A stretch of 64,000 nt of DNA from Phytohabitans flavus. GTDB taxonomy: Bacteria > Actinomycetota > Actinomycetes > Mycobacteriales > Micromonosporaceae. A program made the translations under genes and the position numbers. Under the pieces are notes generated by a model. It was not told the DNA's origin. It made no database searches and saw only the letters and a list, made by a program, of their open reading frames with translations. Numbering within the stretch: the stretch's first letter is position 1; every line of letters starts with the position of its first letter. Positions 11,468-57,674 of the stretch are shown piece after piece. The stretch lies in assembly GCF_011764545.1 (NCBI RefSeq), contig NZ_AP022870.1, forward strand, positions 4,262,001 through 4,326,000. Direction: 5' to 3'.

Positions 11468-11522
11468 CGGGTGAGGCCGCGGGAGCGACGGTCTGGACCA
11501 CGACGGACGCCGCGGTAGCTCG
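11468..11522 (-). repeat. Interspersed repeat, type A arm, solo copy
   Basis: Minus-strand copy of the arm that begins GAGCTACCGCG and runs GTGGTCCAGACC...GCTCCCGCGGCCTCACC. It lies between the hypothetical gene (+) and the ABC-F gene (-), at their converging 3' ends. No partner arm or core palindrome is next to it; this copy has several changes (CGGCGTCCGTCGTGG). Confidence 0.7.
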
Positions 11523-15718: not shown

Positions 15719-15795
15719 GAGCTACCGCGACGTCCGCGGTGGTCCAGACCGCCGCTCCCGCGGCCTCACCCTCCGCGCTCCACAACCCAAACCCA
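15719..15795 (+). repeat. Interspersed repeat, type A arm
   Basis: GAGCTACCGCGACGTCCGCG...GTGGTCCAGACC...GCTCCCGCGGCCTCACC...CACAACCC, the same as arms at 44056, 44597, 57371 and 57552. The outer flank CTTTCAGGATCGAGATCT resembles the outer end of type B arms. It starts 22 bases after the VOC stop codon. The arm itself contains small inverted repeats (ACCGCG/CGCGGT and GGTC/GACC). Confidence 0.8.
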
Positions 15796-16014
15796 CGACC
15801 CACAGCTCCGCGTCCCACCTTGTTGCTGCCCTGGAGCCGGTTGCAAAAATGCCCGCCGACAACCTGCGTCGGGAAAATACGGCTGTGTCGACCGCTGGCC
15901 GCCGAGCGGCGGCAAGCGAGGGTCAACGCGACCCCTCATCTCATGCGAATCTGGCGATTCTGTCCCCGGCAGCAATAAGTGCTCACAAACCGCCCGAGCC
16001 CGGGGCGGACCCGA

Positions 16015-16074
16015 GTTCTGGATCTAGTCGACTTTCTGTCGTCAGGGCAGCAGAAAGTCGACTAGATCCAGAAC
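16015..16074. repeat. Long palindrome with a perfect 24-bp stem
   Basis: Stem 16015-16038 (starting GTTCTGGATCTAG) pairs perfectly with 16051-16074 around a 12-base loop (TCGTCAGGGCAG). It lies in the gap between convergent genes. Stem sequence differs from the GATCGTGGTA family, but loop length and position are alike. Confidence 0.85.
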
Positions 16075-16078
16075 TTTG

Positions 16079-16108
16079 CCGGGTCGCCCGCGAGGCGGGC
16101 AGACCCGG
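16079..16108. terminator. GC-rich hairpin between convergent genes
   Basis: CCGGGTC-g-CCCGC (16079-16091), loop gag, partner GCGGG-ca-GACCCGG (16095-16108). Directly beside the 24-bp palindrome. Could end transcription from either side. Confidence 0.45.
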
Positions 16109-16280
16109 AAACATTCATGCGTTGCCGGGGTTGCGGTTACCCCATTTCTTGGCTCCGGCGGGGATCTCCGGCCTCCAGGATGGGGAAAGTGCGGGCTGCG
16201 TCGAATCTGATCGCTCAGCCGCCTCTGAACGCGGTTCCGGTCGCACTGGCAGCAACAAGCGGACCCAAAAGCCACTCGTT

Positions 16281-16396
16281 CCTTGATCGGCGCTACAGCC
16301 CGACGCCATAGCAGATCGTGGTATTTAGCTGTCGCTATAGGGGCAGCTAAATACCACGATCGCTAGCCTGCTCCGGCCGTAACGCGCCGATCAAGG
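16281..16396. repeat. Core palindromic element, GATCGTGGTA family (full copy)
   Basis: Inner hairpin: 18-bp perfect stem GATCGTGGTATTTAGCTG (16314-16331) with partner 16344-16361 and a 12-base loop. Outer inverted pair CCTTGATCGGCGC (16281-16293) and GCGCCGATCAAGG (16384-16396). The same nested layout recurs at 44430-44546, and in reduced form at 34205 and 57464. Confidence 0.85.
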
Positions 16397-34204: not shown

Positions 34205-34254
34205 AGATCGTGGTATCGAAATGCCCCTCTGGGGGCAGTTTGGTACCACGATCT
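34205..34254. repeat. Core palindrome, GATCGTGGTA family
   Basis: Outer stem AGATCGTGGTA (34205-34215) pairs with TACCACGATCT (34244-34254); inner stem TGCCCC (34222-34227) pairs with GGGGCA (34232-34237). It sits between two inverted type B arms. Confidence 0.8.
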
Positions 34255-41800: not shown

Positions 41801-43988
41801 TGGCCCGGGCGTACACCCAGGTAGGCCGCCCGCTGGCCGCCCTGACCGTGCTGAACGCCCTGCGCGGCCGCGTAGAGGCGGGCGCGGACGGCGACCTGCG
41901 GATCGAGTTCCTGACGGCGGAAGGGCTCGCCCACCGCGCCGGCAACGACACCTCCTCCGCGCTCGCGAGCCTGGGCCGCGCGCACGACCTCGCCCTCGCC
42001 GCCGCCCCTCCCCGACCGGCGTGACCGCCACCCGCGAGTGGGGTGCGGCCCTGACCGGCGCCGGCCGCCTGGAGGAGGCGGTCGCCGTGCTCGAAGCGTG
42101 CCTGCCCCGGGCACGGGCGCTGGGCGGGCAGCCGACCACGGAGGCGTACCTCGGCCAGACCCTGGCTCGGGCGCTCGACGCGGCTGGCGACGCCGCCGGG
42201 GCCGGACGGGTGCTCGACCGGGCCGCCGAGATCTTCCGCGCCGAGGACGACCTGGGCGGGCTCGGCCGTACGCTGGCGATCCGCGGTGACGTGGCGCTCG
42301 CCCTCGACGACCTCGACGCCGCGTGGCGGTACCTCGCCGCCGCGGCCGAACTGGCCGAAGAGGCCGGCGACCACCCGGCGCACGCCGCCGCGCTCGACGC
42401 GCTCGGCACCGTCCACATGCGAGCCGGGGACGCCGCGCTGGCCGTGGCGTGCCACGAGCGGGCCGCCGGTGCGTACCGCGAGCTGGGCGCCGCCGAGGAC
42501 GAGCAGGCCGCCCGGCTCAACCTCGTGGAGTCCCACCTCCAGCTCGGCGACGCCCGCGCGGCGCAGGAGGCGTTCCAGGCCGTACTCGCGCCCGACGCGC
42601 CGGTCGTCGTCTCGCTCGCCAGCCGCATGTACTTCCTCACCGCGCTGCTCAGCGCGGAGCGGGGCGACTGGGGCGGGGCACGTCCGGCGCTCCGGCAGTG
42701 CCTCGACGCCGTGTCGCGGGACACCGCCTCGGTCTCCTCGCCCGGCGAGCGGTGGCGCCGGATGCGCGCCGGCGACCGGGCGTACGAGCTGGCCGGCGCG
42801 GCGGCGGTGCGGGCCGGCGACGCCACGTTCGCGGCCGAGGTCGCCGAGGGCCGGCGGGCCGCGTTCCTGCGGGCGGTCTTCGGCGAAGCCGCCCCGGCCG
42901 CCACACTGCCCGCGCTGGAGGATGTCACCGCGGCGCTGCCACCGAACACCGTCGCCGCCTACGTCGACCTCTCCCCCACCCTGACCGTCCTCTGCGCCGC
43001 GCCCGGCGGCTGGAGCGCGATCGTCGAGCGCCCCGGGGTCGGCGCGGACGACATCCCGGCGGCCGCCGGCGCTCTCCCGGCCGGGCGGCTGGACGCCGTG
43101 GGCCGGCTGCTCGGGCGCGAACTGTGGGCGCCGCTGCTGGAGCGGGTCCCGGCGGGCACGACCGGCGTCGTGCTACTGCCGTCCGCCCGCCTCGCCGGCC
43201 TCCCGCTGGACGCGGCCCGGCTCCCGGACGGCGGGCAGGTGGGCGACCGGATCCGGGTCGGCTACGCGCCGAGCCTCGCCCTGCTGCGCCGGAACGTGGA
43301 CGAGCCGCCCCCGCCCCGCAGCCTGGGCCAGGCCGTCGACCCCACGGGAGAGTTCCCGTTCAGCCGGCGGGCGGCCGCCGCCGTGGCCGAGCCGGCGATC
43401 GCGTTCACCGGGGCCGACGCGACGGCGGACGCCGTACTCAAGCTGCTGCGGACCTGCGACGTGGTGCACTTCGCCGGGCCCGGCCGCTTCGACCCGGACG
43501 ACCCGCCAGGCTCCTACCTCCAATGCGCCGCCGGTGACGGCGGCGACGGCCGGCTCAGCATCGCCCGGCTGCTCACGGAGGGCGGGCCGGTCAGCGCGTC
43601 GCTCGTCGTACTCTCCGGCTGCGCTTCCGGCGCCGCCTCTGCCGGACGGTGGCGCGGCGACGCCGTCGGCCTGCCAGGCACGCTCCTCGTGGCGGGTGCG
43701 GGGCAGGCGATCGCCACACACTGGGCGGTCGGCGAGCTGGAGGCCGCGCTGCTCGTGGGCGAGTTCTTCCGCCGCTGGCAGCAGGGCGCGGTCTCCGCCG
43801 CGACAGCGCTAGCCGAGGCCCAACGCTGCTTCCGCAGCGAAATCTCCAACGCGGACGTCGTAAGCCTCCTACGGCAGTGGGACGCGACCGACGCCACGCT
43901 GGTCCGCTGGCGAGCCCGCCCACCCGACGCGCCCGCATTCGCCGGCACCGTCGACTGGGCCGCCTTCCACCTGGTCGGCCTCCCCTAG
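38891..43988 (+). CDS. Very long TPR-type protein with C-terminal CHAT domain (two frameshifts)
   Basis: Roughly 1,699 residues once two single-base losses are repaired, near 39090 (GGGTGGCGGGCAGCGCC; joins YVGEGWRAA to CYERVSGYLGG) and near 42010 (GCCCCTCCCCGACC). Helical TPR-like repeats occur before and after two low-complexity linkers: Ala/Ser/Glu/Pro repeats encoded at 40260-40600 and Glu/Pro/Gln-rich repeats at 41290-41750. The C-terminal third is a CHAT (caspase-HetF) domain with VVLLPSARLAGLPLDA, CDVVHFAGPGRFD and VVLSGCASGA. The Cys (43620-43622) is kept, but the position normally His in the HG of this motif is Pro (43478-43480), so protease activity is doubtful. TPR-CHAT proteins act as proteases in stress or defence pathways; the role here is unknown. 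Confidence 0.78.
40441..40560 (+). repeat. 45-bp in-frame tandem repeat in the TPR-CHAT linker
   Basis: Two 45-base units (40441-40485, 40486-40530) beginning GGCTCGGCTGAACCGGGCTC, plus a 30-base unit lacking 15 bases (40531-40560). All multiples of three, so the repeat number can change without breaking the frame. Confidence 0.8.
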
Positions 43989-44055
43989 AGCCTGCCTCCG
44001 AGTCGCTAGGTCTGTCCACAATGGCGCCGGCAGACCCATTGCACGACAAAGATGT

Positions 44056-44131
44056 GAGCTACCGCGACGTCCGCGGTGGTCCGGACCGCTGCTCCCGCGG
44101 CCTCACCCTCCGCGCTTCACAATCCAAGCCC
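44056..44131 (+). repeat. Interspersed repeat, type A arm (left arm of composite)
   Basis: GAGCTACCGCGACGTCCGCG...GTGGTCCGGACCGC...GCTCCCGCGGCCTCACCC. Faces its inverted partner at 44597-44661 across three hairpins. Starts about 68 bases after the TPR-CHAT stop. Confidence 0.82.
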
Positions 44132-44245
44132 CCGCGGCACTGGCCGGCAGGCCGGACCCGATGCGACAACCCCATCGCACCAATCAGGGCGATGGCCGGC
44201 GCAGTCGGAAAAGGGGACGCGGCCTAGATCGGTCGATGCTCTGGT

Positions 44246-44295
44246 CGTCCGTGTCGAGAAATTACCCCTCCAGGGGCAACTTCTCGACACGGACG
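44246..44295. repeat. Long palindrome inside composite element
   Basis: Perfect 15-bp stem CGTCCGTGTCGAGAA (44246-44260) with TTCTCGACACGGACG (44281-44295); an inner CCCCT/AGGGG stem (44265-44269, 44272-44276) caps it. Confidence 0.82.
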
Positions 44296-44390
44296 CGGCC
44301 CGGTAGGGCGCTGCTCGCGTCGATCAAGGGAAGTCCGGGGCCATCGGCCACGAACGGCCTCTTTGTGTGAAGGTTCGTCGCCGTCAACGC

Positions 44391-44419
44391 GGGGTCTGGG
44401 GCCGGAGGCCCCAGACCCC
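44391..44419. terminator. Hairpin with 13-bp GC-rich stem
   Basis: GGGGTCTGGGGCC (44391-44403), loop GGA, partner 44407-44419, all pairs perfect. Lies between the inverted GCGTCGATCAAGGG (44317-44330) and CCCTTGATCGACGC (44429-44442). A good candidate for two-way termination. Confidence 0.6.
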
Positions 44420-44429
44420 GACAGCTTTC

Positions 44430-44546
44430 CCTTGATCGACGCGTCGGAGCCGGTGCAGGCAAGCGATCGTGGTACTCAGCTGTCGCTACAGCGACAGTGA
44501 AATACCACGATCTGCTGGAGGGCGTCGGCTGTAGCGCCGATCAAGG
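44430..44546. repeat. Core palindromic element, GATCGTGGTA family (full copy)
   Basis: Inner hairpin GATCGTGGTA (44465-44474) with TACCACGATC (44503-44512), capped by CTGTCGCT/AGCGACAG (44480-44487, 44490-44497). Outer pair CCTTGATCGACGC (44430-44442) and GCGCCGATCAAGG (44534-44546). Same layout as 16281-16396. Confidence 0.85.
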
Positions 44547-44596
44547 AAACCAGTGGCTGTCGGGGTTCTGCTCGGGCCGCCGGCGGCGGGTCGGTC

Positions 44597-44661
44597 GTGA
44601 AGCGCGGAGGGTGAGGCCGCGGGAGCAGCGGTCCGGACCACCGCGGACGTCGCGGTAGCCC
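44597..44661 (-). repeat. Interspersed repeat, type A arm (right arm of composite)
   Basis: Inverse copy of the arm at 44056. Ends about 20 bases before the stop codon of the convergent molybdenum-subunit gene. Confidence 0.82.
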
Positions 44662-44681
44662 AAATCTTGAAATGGAGTCGT

Positions 44682-46889
44682 CTAGGGGCGGAGCAGCTTG
44701 TCCGGGGTGATGGGGAGGTCGCGGACGCGGATGCCGATGGCGTGGTAGACGGCGTTGGCGATGCTGGCGTGTACGCCGACCGCGACCACCTCGCCCAGCC
44801 CCTTCGCGCCCAACGGATGCGCGTTGTAGTCGGGCTCCTCCACAAAGGACACGTCGATGTCGCCGACGTCGGCGTTGACCGGTACGTGGTAGTCGGTCAG
44901 GGCGGGCGCGATGAAGCGGCCGGTCACCGGGTCCGTGGCCAGGTCCTCCATCAGGGCACCGCCGAGCGCGTAGATGATGCCGCCCTGGGCCTGGTTTCGC
45001 GCGGTCTTCGGGTTGAGTACCCGGCCGACCGCGAAGACGCCGACGTGCCGGGTGACCCGTACCCGCCGCAGGGTGTCGTCGATGCGTACCTCGGTGAAGT
45101 GGGCGCCGAACGTGGCGTACGCGAAGCGGGGGTCGGCGCCGGCCGGGTCGTGGAATCCCTGCTCCACTATGGAGCGCCGGCCGTTGCGGCGGAGCAGGTC
45201 GCGGTACGTCTCGCCGCGGCGTGGGACGTCCACATCGTACAATCGGCCGCGAGCGGCGCCGACCCGCTCGGCGGGTAGGCCGTGCAGGGGTGAGCGCGGG
45301 TCGGCGACCGCGAGCCGGGCCGCGGCCTGCCGTGCCCGGAGCGCCGCCAGGTGCACCGCCGTGCCGGTGCTGCCGGTCGTGCGCGAGCCGGACGTTGGCG
45401 CGGACTCCGGCAGCGTGGTGTCGCCGCTGCGGATGTCCACTTGGGACGGTGCGATGCCGGTACCGTCGGCGGCGATCTGGGTGAGTGTGGTGAGGTTGCC
45501 GGTGCCGATCTCCGGGGCGGCCGTGCGCACCTCGGCGCTGCCGTCGTCGCGGATCTCGACGGCGGCGCGCGCGGCGGCGTGGTGCTCCAGCCGCTGGGCG
45601 GACGACATGCCGAAGCCGACCCAGTCGGCACCGTCGCGCATCATCCGCGGGCGGGGTGCGCGCCGCTCCCACCCGAAGCGCTCGGCGCCCACGTCGTAGC
45701 ACTCCAGCAGCTGCTTGCCACTCCATGGGCGGCCGAGCAGCGGGTGTACGGCGAGGTGGTTGCGGCGGCGCAGCTCGATCGGGTCCAGCTCCAGCGCGTA
45801 CGCCATCTCGTCGAGCGCGCTGCCCACCGCGAACATCCCGGGGCCGTCGCCGGGCGTGCGCATCGTGGCCGGGGCCGGCATGTGCATGCCCGCGACCTCG
45901 ACGCGGACGCCGACCGAGCGGAGGGCGTACACGGTGCCGGTCGGCGAAATCGCGGCCTCGGGGCGGTCGAAGAGGACCGGCGTGCCGTTGACGGTGTGGT
46001 GGGTGATGGCCTGGAGCGTGCCGTCGCGGTTGGCGCCGACCCGCAGCCGCTGGATGATGGGCGGCTGGTGGCCGTGGCAGGTGAAGACCTGCTTGCGCGT
46101 GACCACGAGCTGGACCGGCCGTCCCACCTGGCGGGCGGCCACGGCGGCGAGGAGGGTGTGCGCCCACACCGCGGTCTTGTTGCCGAACGCGCCACCCACC
46201 AAAGTGGACACGACCCGCACCCGGTCCGGCGGCAGGCCGAGCGCGCCGGCGATGACCGGGCGGTCGAGGTGGACCTGCTGGCTCGTCTCGTGCACGGTCA
46301 GCGAGCCGCCGTCCCAGTGGGCGAGCGTCGCGTTCGGCTCCATCGGGGCGTGGCTGTTGTAGGGCGTGCGGTACTCCAGGTCGAGGCGCACGTCCGCGGC
46401 CGCCAGCCGGGCCTCGGGGTCGCCGAGCGCGAGCAGGGTCGGAAACTCGGGCTCGAAGCGCCACACGGGCTGGTGCGCGTCCGGCAGCGCGGCGTCCAAT
46501 GTGGGCACGGCTGGGCGGGTCTCGTAGTCGACCGCCACCAGGCCCGCGGCGTGCGCGGCCTGCTCGCGGGTGCCGGCGACGACCACCGCGAGGTACTGGC
46601 CGTGGTGGTGGATGTGCTCGTCGGCGAGAGGGAAGCGGGTCTCCACGTACCGCAGGGCGGCCGGCGTGCTGTGCCACTGTGGACGGTTGAGGTGGGTGAT
46701 GACGGCGAGCACGCCGGGTGCCGCCTCGGCGCGGGCGGTGTCGATGGCGCGCACCCGGCCGGCGGAGACCGCGCTGCTCATCAGCGCCGCGTACACCATG
46801 CCGGGCAGGCGGGTGTCGGCGGTGTAGCGGGCCGCGCCGGTCACCTTGTCGCGGGCCTCCACCCGGCTCAGGGGCCTCCCGATTGCCAT
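44682..46889 (-). CDS. Molybdenum-cofactor subunit of PaoABC-like aldehyde/xanthine dehydrogenase
   Basis: 735 residues from ATG 46889. Xanthine oxidase family large subunit: RVEARDKVTGAARYTAD, TLVGGAFGNKT (cofactor contact), MRTPGDGPGMFAVGSALDEMAYALELDP and the C-terminal GAKGLGEVV whose Glu is the catalytic base of the family. It binds the molybdopterin cytosine dinucleotide and oxidises the substrate, passing electrons to the two partner subunits. The ATG overlaps the stop of the FAD subunit gene (ATGA). It has no signal peptide, which fits co-export with the Tat-bearing iron-sulfur subunit. Substrate probably an aldehyde (by analogy with PaoC). Confidence 0.87.
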   Translation of the reverse strand: MAIGRPLSRVEARDKVTGAARYTADTRLPGMVYAALMSSAVSAGRVRAIDTARAEAAPGVLAVITHLNRPQWHSTPAALRYVETRFPLADEHIHHHGQYLAVVVAGTREQAAHAAGLVAVDYETRPAVPTLDAALPDAHQPVWRFEPEFPTLLALGDPEARLAAADVRLDLEYRTPYNSHAPMEPNATLAHWDGGSLTVHETSQQVHLDRPVIAGALGLPPDRVRVVSTLVGGAFGNKTAVWAHTLLAAVAARQVGRPVQLVVTRKQVFTCHGHQPPIIQRLRVGANRDGTLQAITHHTVNGTPVLFDRPEAAISPTGTVYALRSVGVRVEVAGMHMPAPATMRTPGDGPGMFAVGSALDEMAYALELDPIELRRRNHLAVHPLLGRPWSGKQLLECYDVGAERFGWERRAPRPRMMRDGADWVGFGMSSAQRLEHHAAARAAVEIRDDGSAEVRTAAPEIGTGNLTTLTQIAADGTGIAPSQVDIRSGDTTLPESAPTSGSRTTGSTGTAVHLAALRARQAAARLAVADPRSPLHGLPAERVGAARGRLYDVDVPRRGETYRDLLRRNGRRSIVEQGFHDPAGADPRFAYATFGAHFTEVRIDDTLRRVRVTRHVGVFAVGRVLNPKTARNQAQGGIIYALGGALMEDLATDPVTGRFIAPALTDYHVPVNADVGDIDVSFVEEPDYNAHPLGAKGLGEVVAVGVHASIANAVYHAIGIRVRDLPITPDKLLRP

Positions 46890-57335: not shown

Positions 57336-57370
57336 CAGCGGCTCTTCCGCGCCCATTCCACTATGGACTT

Positions 57371-57440
57371 GAGCTACCGCGATGTCCGCGGTGGTCCAGA
57401 CCGCTGCTCCCGCGGCCTCACCCTCCGCGCTACACAACCC
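57371..57440 (+). repeat. Interspersed repeat, type A arm (left arm of composite)
   Basis: GAGCTACCGCGATGTCCGCG...GTGGTCCAGACC...GCTCCCGCGGCCTCACCC...CACAACCCAACC. Faces 57552-57620 across a core palindrome. Confidence 0.82.
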
Positions 57441-57463
57441 AACCCCGCGCACAAGCTAGTCGG

Positions 57464-57543
57464 CCCTTGATCTGCGATGGGATCGGAGCACGCAGCGATC
57501 GTGGTACGCAACTGCCCCTGAGGGGCCGCTAAATACCATGATC
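57464..57543. repeat. Core palindromic element, GATCGTGGTA family (left-framed copy)
   Basis: Left frame CCCTTGATCTGCG (57464-57476); stem GATCGTGGTA (57497-57506) pairs with TACCATGATC (57534-57543, one G-T change); inner CCCC/GGGG (57515-57518, 57522-57525). The right outer frame is missing because the right arm follows at once. Confidence 0.78.
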
Positions 57544-57551
57544 TGCCGGAG

Positions 57552-57620
57552 GTTGTGAACCGCGGAGGGTGAGGCCGCGGGAGCAGCGGTCTGGACCACC
57601 GCGGACATCGCGGTAGCTCA
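57552..57620 (-). repeat. Interspersed repeat, type A arm (right arm of composite)
   Basis: Inverse copy of 57371-57440, with the same ATGTCC variant, ending 55 bases before the stop codon of the convergent coiled-coil gene. The two arms of this element match each other better than they match arms elsewhere. Confidence 0.82.
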
Positions 57621-57674
57621 AATTTCTATTCTGGGCCAGATTCGCAGATGAGCCCGACCACGAAGAGTGTCCGG

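Follow-up and report, generated by a model that had tools for sequence, protein, structure and literature searches.

In pneumococcus, the small, structured and lineage-limited interspersed repeats SPRITE, RUP and BOX are enriched at convergent genes, as reported in the accessible part of PMC3049150. According to the same part of that source, SPRITE is terminator-like and is found near the 3' ends of genes, and its co-option as a terminator was suggested (PMC3049150). BIME/REP and REPIN are, like the family described here, high-copy, mosaic, extragenic palindromes with inverted pairs able to form hairpins (accessible parts of PMC2817692 and PMC3116915), and ERIC, Correia/NEMIS and other bacterial MITEs are likewise palindromic and devoid of a transposase, several of them with TA at their ends (accessible part of PMC2229807). 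The locus analyzed here is situated at positions 44,056 to 44,661 of a 64,000-nucleotide stretch of Phytohabitans flavus DNA (Micromonosporaceae; NZ_AP022870.1, 4,262,001 to 4,326,000), which is referred to as the window. It belongs to a repeat family in which outward-facing arms, with about 58 strongly conserved positions and a variable leader, surround a lineage-specific assortment of hairpins. Four Phytohabitans genomes contain hundreds of these arms each; in the sampled stretches they are situated chiefly at the 3' ends of genes, with convergent junctions as the most frequent site.

In the preliminary description of the locus, two type A arms in opposite orientation (44056-44131 and 44597-44661) were seen to enclose three perfect hairpins and a framing inverted pair. 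The opposed arms were borne out and are, as measured, slightly longer (44049-44138 and 44579-44668), being 90 nt each and 89% complementary to one another (Table 1). All three hairpins are present as well, but strictly perfect is only hp2, whose 14-nt arms are 100% complementary, while those of hp1 (24 nt) and hp3 (23 nt, aligned without gaps) reach 92% and 83%. The framing repeat does occur in inverted copies, yet there are three of them and not two. In agreement with the statement that no protein is encoded inside, the codon-usage caller placed no gene in 43988-44682, and the neighbouring genes are convergent. As RNA, hp1, hp2 and hp3 were predicted to fold with -34.9, -31.6 and -29.2 kcal/mol (z -10.4, -6.8 and -7.7, respectively), and for each of them 0/200 shuffles were as good. 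The fold of the arm alone was unexceptional, two consensus versions giving z -0.8 (44/200 shuffles as good) and z -2.1 (7/200). When six junctions were folded whole with their flanks, long nested hairpins with raw, unshuffled energies of -278 to -311 kcal/mol per 420-450 nt were obtained. No Rfam 15 family matched the element at its gathering score, the two matches up to E 1 being far lower (34 bits vs 197 and 18 vs 52), which agrees with the earlier remark that it was not recognised as a named repeat family. A scan for intrinsic terminators (GC-rich hairpin plus T run), which is blind to U-less hairpin terminators, returned none in 43900-44750.

Table 1. Features of the repeat element at 44,056-44,661 and of further copies in the window.
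Feature	Position in the window	Strand	Remarks
Left neighbour, TPR + CHAT-domain protein	42021..43988	+	stop TAG, context CCCTAGAG
Left leader, stop codon to arm	43989..44049	+	holds GGTCTGTCCACAATGGCGCCGGCAGACC, akin to leaders of some other copies
Left arm, core 44058-44088	44050..44136	+	sense to left gene
Hairpin module hp1	44246..44295	.	CGTCCGTGTCGAGAA...TTCTCGACACGGACG
Framing repeat, copy 1, GCGTCGATCAAGGGAA	44316..44332	+	
Hairpin module hp2	44390..44420	.	GGGGTCTGGGGCC/GGCCCCAGACCCC
Framing repeat, copy 2, inverted	44427..44443	-	100% complementary to copy 1
Hairpin module hp3, 48 nt	44465..44512	.	GATCGTGGT...ACCACGATC; inside variable, largely self-complementary
Framing repeat, copy 3	44534..44549	+	88%
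Right arm, core 44629-44659	44579..44668	-	sense to right gene
Right leader, ends at stop TAG of right gene	44669..44681	-	context CGTCTAGGGG
Right neighbour, molybdopterin-binding subunit of xanthine dehydrogenase-type enzyme	44682..46862	-	
Second complete copy: arm + hp3 (57497-57543) + inverse arm	57363..57627	.	convergent genes
Third copy: + arm 15721, hp3 16314-16361	15721..16361	.	convergent genes
Solo arm core	11489..11519	-	convergent genes
hp3 alone	34206..34253	.	tandem genes

Recurrence of the arms had been noted at two other convergent junctions; they do recur, but at three. Besides the solo core, arm cores were found at 15721-15751 (+), 57373-57403 (+) and 57587-57617 (-), all in convergent gaps, with the reservation that the gene called nearest to the left of 11489 has 30 codons only and the gene preceding that one runs the same way. 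The three further hp3 copies of the window start at 16314, 57497 and 34206.

The genome of the window (G000, 9,607,004 bases) and five other Phytohabitans genomes (G001-G005) were searched for a 31-nt arm core with up to 3 mismatches. It was obtained 459 times in G000, 366 times in G002, 387 times in G003, 205 times in G005, 17 times in G004 and 4 times in G001, and outside Phytohabitans as a single copy in 2 of the remaining 115 genomes. As the reversed pattern, used as control, gave 0 matches, the 459 cores are not due to chance. The exact arm pattern matched at least 11 stretches among named genomes, and the matches listed all belong to Phytohabitans suffuscus NBRC 105367. A 29-nt inner core (up to 3 mismatches; reversed controls 0) was detected in 34/160 genomes and 11/44 genera of the Micromonosporaceae, with 7-431 copies in each of the six Phytohabitans genomes, 17-45 in each of six genomes searched of genus g19, and 11 at most elsewhere. 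In g19 the flanks of the core differ from those in Phytohabitans, the typical form being ggtcccgg-core-ccggggacc. Genus g17 (G021, G183; L214, L215) has single diverged cores in a similar longer context, GATCAAGGGG...core...AAGGTCAAA, which may represent a further subfamily. Counts from the sequence-only model search are lower bounds, since at most 64 candidates were scored per genome. Collections of plasmids, phages and viral contigs returned no match with the queries used.

Ungapped stacking of 162 arms revealed a strongly conserved block from about -2 to +56, the outer side of which fades into the leader. Leaders have a higher A+T content than the 3' flanks of ordinary convergent genes and range in length from 6 to more than 100 nt; an extended leader (GTCCGTCCACAATGG...), considered as a constant component of the element, had 6 copies only at up to 3 mismatches. 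Among 40 mapped loci, hp1, hp2, hp3 and the framing repeat are shuffled in order, number and orientation. Mostly, hp3 is a 48-nt hairpin with fixed ends and variable interior, of which, at 48 nt and up to 1 mismatch, there are 105 copies in G000, 283 in G003, 174 in G005, 29 in G002, 2 in G004 and 0 in G001, as well as 1-3 copies in 14 of the other 154 genomes of the family. hp1 occupies 33 places in G000 and 5 in G004, and none in G001, G002, G003, G005, G138 and G150. The arm counts across genomes and the spread of hp1 and hp3 thus show that the arms are common property, while much of the interior is species-specific. In G003 (P. suffuscus; L150-L166) a large number of hp3 copies combine two half types, TATGAAAC.G with TACGGATCCG, and seem to stem from one amplified hybrid lineage. 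Arm pairs at a distance of 214-1063 nt (24 entries, corresponding to 22 distinct copies) contain 0 called genes, and many arms are solo (20/31 in convergent gaps). A dispersed repeat of about 120 bp was observed near one arm (G000:C1:2414504-2414630; L139:14504-14630), having, in most of the listed matches, 81-92% identity to many places in G003 and G002.

Genes were called with a custom script based on codon usage, so that their positions are approximate. A contiguous sample of 320 kb of G000 (2.30-2.62 Mb) contained 31 arms with up to 6 mismatches, of which 16 are located in convergent and 15 in tandem gaps, and none in divergent gaps or inside genes. Convergent gaps account for 14% of the called intergenic length (excess of arms, p 9e-7; by junction number, p 6e-5) and divergent gaps for 25% (deficit, p 2e-4; by junction number, p 2e-3). 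Together with the window, which had been chosen for the finding, the sample holds 37 arms (22 convergent, 15 tandem, 0 divergent, 0 intragenic). Looser patterns, applied to the window and to stretches of G000, G003 and G002, yielded 77 whole or half arms, of which 31 are convergent, 38 tandem, 3 divergent and 5 intragenic, and a larger set selected by arms, which provided 70 distances to the upstream sense stop, had 59/87 arms in convergent gaps and 2/87 inside called genes. For hp3 outside called genes (n=63, many loci being selected by their arms) the distribution was 27 convergent, 34 tandem and 2 divergent; 13 more pattern matches inside called genes mostly fold poorly. The loci of other genera comprise 62 core entries, including 6 from the Phytohabitans genome G004 and 2 repeats of one copy, and are distributed over 20 convergent, 35 tandem and 3 divergent gaps, with 2 intragenic and 2 with a neighbour missing. 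The preference for convergent gaps is strong in Phytohabitans and weaker in the other genera sampled. The count of genomic copies and of their gene orientation, which the preliminary description had proposed, was thereby carried out on samples and showed enrichment in convergent gaps and avoidance of genes and divergent promoters. The opposite picture, copies at random in genes and promoters and stems without compensatory change, was absent, as 0 of the 31 arms are divergent or intragenic and compensatory changes were found in hp3.

In tandem gaps, 21 arms are in sense and 17 in antisense orientation; 16/21 sense arms are no more than 130 nt away from the stop, and the antisense arms face the start of the next gene. 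These counts indicate that the outer end of the arm simply faces outward. A sense-oriented 3'-UTR signal, at first suggested by the 59/87 convergent arms, was weakened by this polarity and the claim was withdrawn. Among the tandem gaps of other genera, antisense copies outnumber sense copies (20 vs 15).

Arms commonly begin a few to about 100 nt past the stop codon, and among these stops TAG, in the context C-TAG-A, is unusually frequent. Where the arm follows within 60 nt (n=45 genes), a hairpin below -15 kcal/mol precedes it in 3 cases (6.7%), compared with 28% in length-matched cuts; at convergent gene ends without arms, 259/271 (96%) have such a hairpin within 100 nt. Arms at more than 60 nt from the stop (n=32) are in 78% of cases located beyond another strong hairpin and therefore need not terminate anything, and in some copies an intact native terminator is situated ahead of the arm. 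Over all 77 arms the difference is modest (36% with a preceding hairpin vs 54% in length-matched cuts, p 0.04). Judged by the 6.7% and 78%, many genes have the element as their first strong structure, and for others it is redundant. The suggested role as terminator is thus favoured by position only, in convergent gaps and at gene 3' ends, and not by a terminator of the T-run type, of which 0 were found in 43900-44750.

Covariation, whose analysis had also been proposed beforehand, stood out in hp3 but not in hp1, and hardly at all in the arms. In 44 of 50 candidate hp3 copies, 87.8% of cells are paired (81.5% in shuffles), 71 two-sided changes were counted (37.5) and the covariation score is 0.232 (0.139), with 0/500 shuffles as high for each of these measures, while slid registers are 30-46% paired. 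The other two of the five measures were weaker, namely pairs with two-sided changes (10 vs 9.1, 181/500) and further pair types (33 vs 29.2, 18/500). Relatedness of the copies and palindrome-repairing replication could contribute to the compensatory signal. Covariation in hp1 was not above shuffles, and the arm had one two-sided change among 11 predicted pairs, so that a conserved RNA fold of the arm is weak. In the g19-type stem one closing pair covaries in one register (35 C-G, 8 U-A) and none in the better-paired register. The notion of a structured RNA hence gains from the compensatory changes of hp3, but neither from the arm nor from hp1, and no Rfam family matches.

Where an arm follows the end of a gene at no more than 130 nt, the stop codon is TAG in 55/100 genes, compared with 211/880 genes without arm (p 8e-10); in the 320 kb and the window alone, the numbers are 16/26 and 80/325 (p 2e-4). 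TAG is preceded by C in 38/55 genes adjoining arms and in 74/211 without, and followed by A in 27/55 and 27/211, respectively. As C also precedes TGA in 28/34 genes adjoining arms, compared with about 330 of 611 (p 0.001), the preference for C is not specific to TAG and there is no plain CTAG signature. Among orthologs without sense arm, one gene differs by TGA -> TAG at the same codon and another has different last codons, while the others keep their stop. Matched stops on both sides, considered as a sign of CTAG/TTAA duplication, were rejected, since 11/21 pairs vs 7.5 expected from the marginals is no clear excess. This stop-codon bias was unexpected; part of it would agree with a landing site that contains TA, or with a C-TAG-A tip of the element's own.

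Positions of the arms turn over between species. When the stretches of G000 and G003 were compared, BLAST matched 13 sense genes adjoining an arm to a gene of the other stretch. Eleven of these are orthologs with at least 80% identity, of which 0/11 have a sense arm there, while an antisense arm is located within 400 nt in three cases. One of the 2 weaker matches carries a sense arm (73% over 140 nt, possibly a paralog). The left gene of the window copy keeps an arm in G003 beside a different neighbour, and the ortholog pair of the window junction in G005 is separated by a plain gap of about 100 bp.

The statement that the element is not an insertion sequence was upheld, as no transposase is encoded inside and no target duplication was detected. 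For 36 arm pairs, the longest common flank words were those of mismatched pairs, and a 2-bp TA duplication at the stops is still compatible with this result. The 9 genes examined inside six wide arm pairs comprise one nested DDE transposase fragment (IS5-like), 2 without Pfam match, and others that are unrelated. The nested element (G000:C1:2302000-2302895; L134:2000-2895), which we take to be IS5-like, has the ends GGCGTGTCCTA/TAGGACACGCC and is inserted in a repeat copy, where it splits a CTTAAGCTGAG module; its reading frame matches Pfam DDE_Tnp_1_2 slightly under the cut-off. Three accounts of how copies arise or are kept alike found no support. An accessory-gene cassette of gene plus 3' arm was not supported in the sampled stretch, since genes with arms are as syntenic as others (G000 5/24 vs 60/299, G003 5/19 vs 51/280, with a collinear chain covering just 57 of 320 kb). 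Insertion into a native terminator palindrome was unsupported because joined leaders fold no better than mismatched ones (p 0.17), and gene conversion between the two arms of a copy because their identity is 0.846 vs 0.830 in random pairs (p 0.24; 32 arm pairs, two copies counted twice). At a GGTCCRGACC centre, arm halves join either each other or, in 17 places, another module. In 25/58 hp3 copies at least 4 of 10 positions differ between the halves; 41/50 such halves recur elsewhere and 17/50 in self-complementary copies, although one G003 hybrid lineage supplies many of the mixed halves. Both the joins of arm halves and the mixed hp3 pairs are suggestive of half-palindrome exchange, and exchange of halves at palindrome centres is a possible reading of these sequences.

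On balance, we favour the reading of the locus as one member of a multicopy family of non-autonomous, mosaic palindromic repeats (BIME/MITE/SPRITE-like) in the Micromonosporaceae, which spreads or is exchanged in trans and serves gene 3' ends as a bidirectional 3'-end structure or terminator. At gene 3' ends the family probably acts in this latter way. Spread or exchange would be brought about in trans by an enzyme of the host or of an insertion sequence, and landing may be tolerated or favoured at stop-codon or terminator sites, where the long fold-back structure would replace or back up the native terminator. Both convergent transcripts could then receive a 3'-end structure that causes termination without a U-run or blocks 3' decay. 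Copy number and turnover fit the mobile palindromic unit moved in trans that had been suggested, but neither an enzyme nor a target duplication was found, and the variation in leader length (6 to more than 100 nt) is unlike the fixed end of a transposon. A purely parasitic repeat that accumulates after stops because insertions elsewhere are selected against, with no role in termination, is somewhat unlikely. Quick turnover of copies agrees with it, arm polarity explains the apparent sense orientation (21 sense and 17 antisense in tandem gaps), and a similar distribution is reported for pneumococcal SPRITE, RUP, BOX and IS in the accessible part of PMC3049150. By itself, however, parasitism leaves unexplained the TAG/C-TAG-A bias, the rarity of further hairpins ahead of nearby arms, the conservation of the core over 11 genera and the compensatory changes in hp3, although palindrome-repairing replication could also yield the latter.

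A more elaborate version, in which the repeat lands at stop codons, brings its own C-TAG-A tip and a two-way terminator and is remodelled by half-palindrome exchange at hairpin centres, has suggestive signs in the joins of arm halves and in the mixed hp3 halves, but we hold it to be unlikely. Selection rather than mobility would maintain the copies if they were a host cis-element, an RNA or DNA binding site read at 3' ends by a trans-acting factor. Presence of the 29-nt core (up to 3 mismatches) in 11/44 genera, with different flanks in the copies read, and the covarying closing pair of g19 (35 C-G, 8 U-A) would suit such a site; since positions are mostly unshared between orthologous genes, genomes within one family or genus differ in abundance from 0-7 copies to hundreds, and covariation is hardly seen in the arm and not at all in the better-paired g19 register, this explanation is quite improbable. 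Inverted pairing, high copy number, extragenic position and mosaic structure are shared with REPINs (accessible parts of PMC2817692 and PMC3116915), so that movement by a RAYT tyrosine transposase was considered and rejected as extremely improbable. Its Y1_Tnp domain (PF01797) was absent from the copy-rich genomes searched (0/6 Phytohabitans, 0/3 g19); the sole match among 15 genomes was in G022, with 6 core copies, while a control set was matched in 5/14. The arms are, moreover, long and 200-1100 nt apart.

Should the pattern of the samples apply throughout, each Phytohabitans genome has, among several hundred copies, a large share at gene ends, at the spot where a terminator is expected, and the question whether interspersed repeats become working bacterial 3' ends is directly testable in one organism. 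The interest of the family is in its scale, its stop-codon bias and its missing mobiliser. The bias, together with the lack of RAYT, suggests that mobilisation takes a route other than the textbook one for REP-like repeats. A repeat that lands at stop codons and exchanges halves would, if true, imply a dedicated, undescribed mobilising activity in actinomycetes. For annotators of high-GC actinomycetes the results are a warning that some convergent gaps are filled by repeats and not by missing genes or RNAs.

A literature search, outside which most subscription papers lay, returned no description of this Micromonosporaceae repeat family, and words starting with 'repeat' occur 0 times in the main text of PMC7692728. 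The Phytohabitans family has the high-copy extragenic inverted pairs of REP/REPIN-BIME, but differs in that no RAYT was found in the copy-rich genomes searched, the arms are much longer and the copies form part of larger composites. With MITEs it shares terminal inverted repeats (89% complementary) and the lack of coding capacity (22 distinct pairs below 1.1 kb, no called gene), whereas, compared with ERIC, Correia/NEMIS and other MITEs, no terminal duplication was detected, leader length is variable and the interior is a mosaic. Closest in behaviour is SPRITE of pneumococcus. The likeness to SPRITE, RUP and BOX, drawn from the accessible descriptions only, consists in enrichment in convergent gaps, structure and lineage limits, and BOX is modular too; the Phytohabitans family differs by paired units of about 300-1150 nt, long inverted arms and several separately dispersed hairpin modules, and further by its TAG stop bias and a core common to several genera. 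Taken together, it is a new and elaborate family, not found described for this group, within a known kind, the bacterial interspersed mosaic palindromic repeats.
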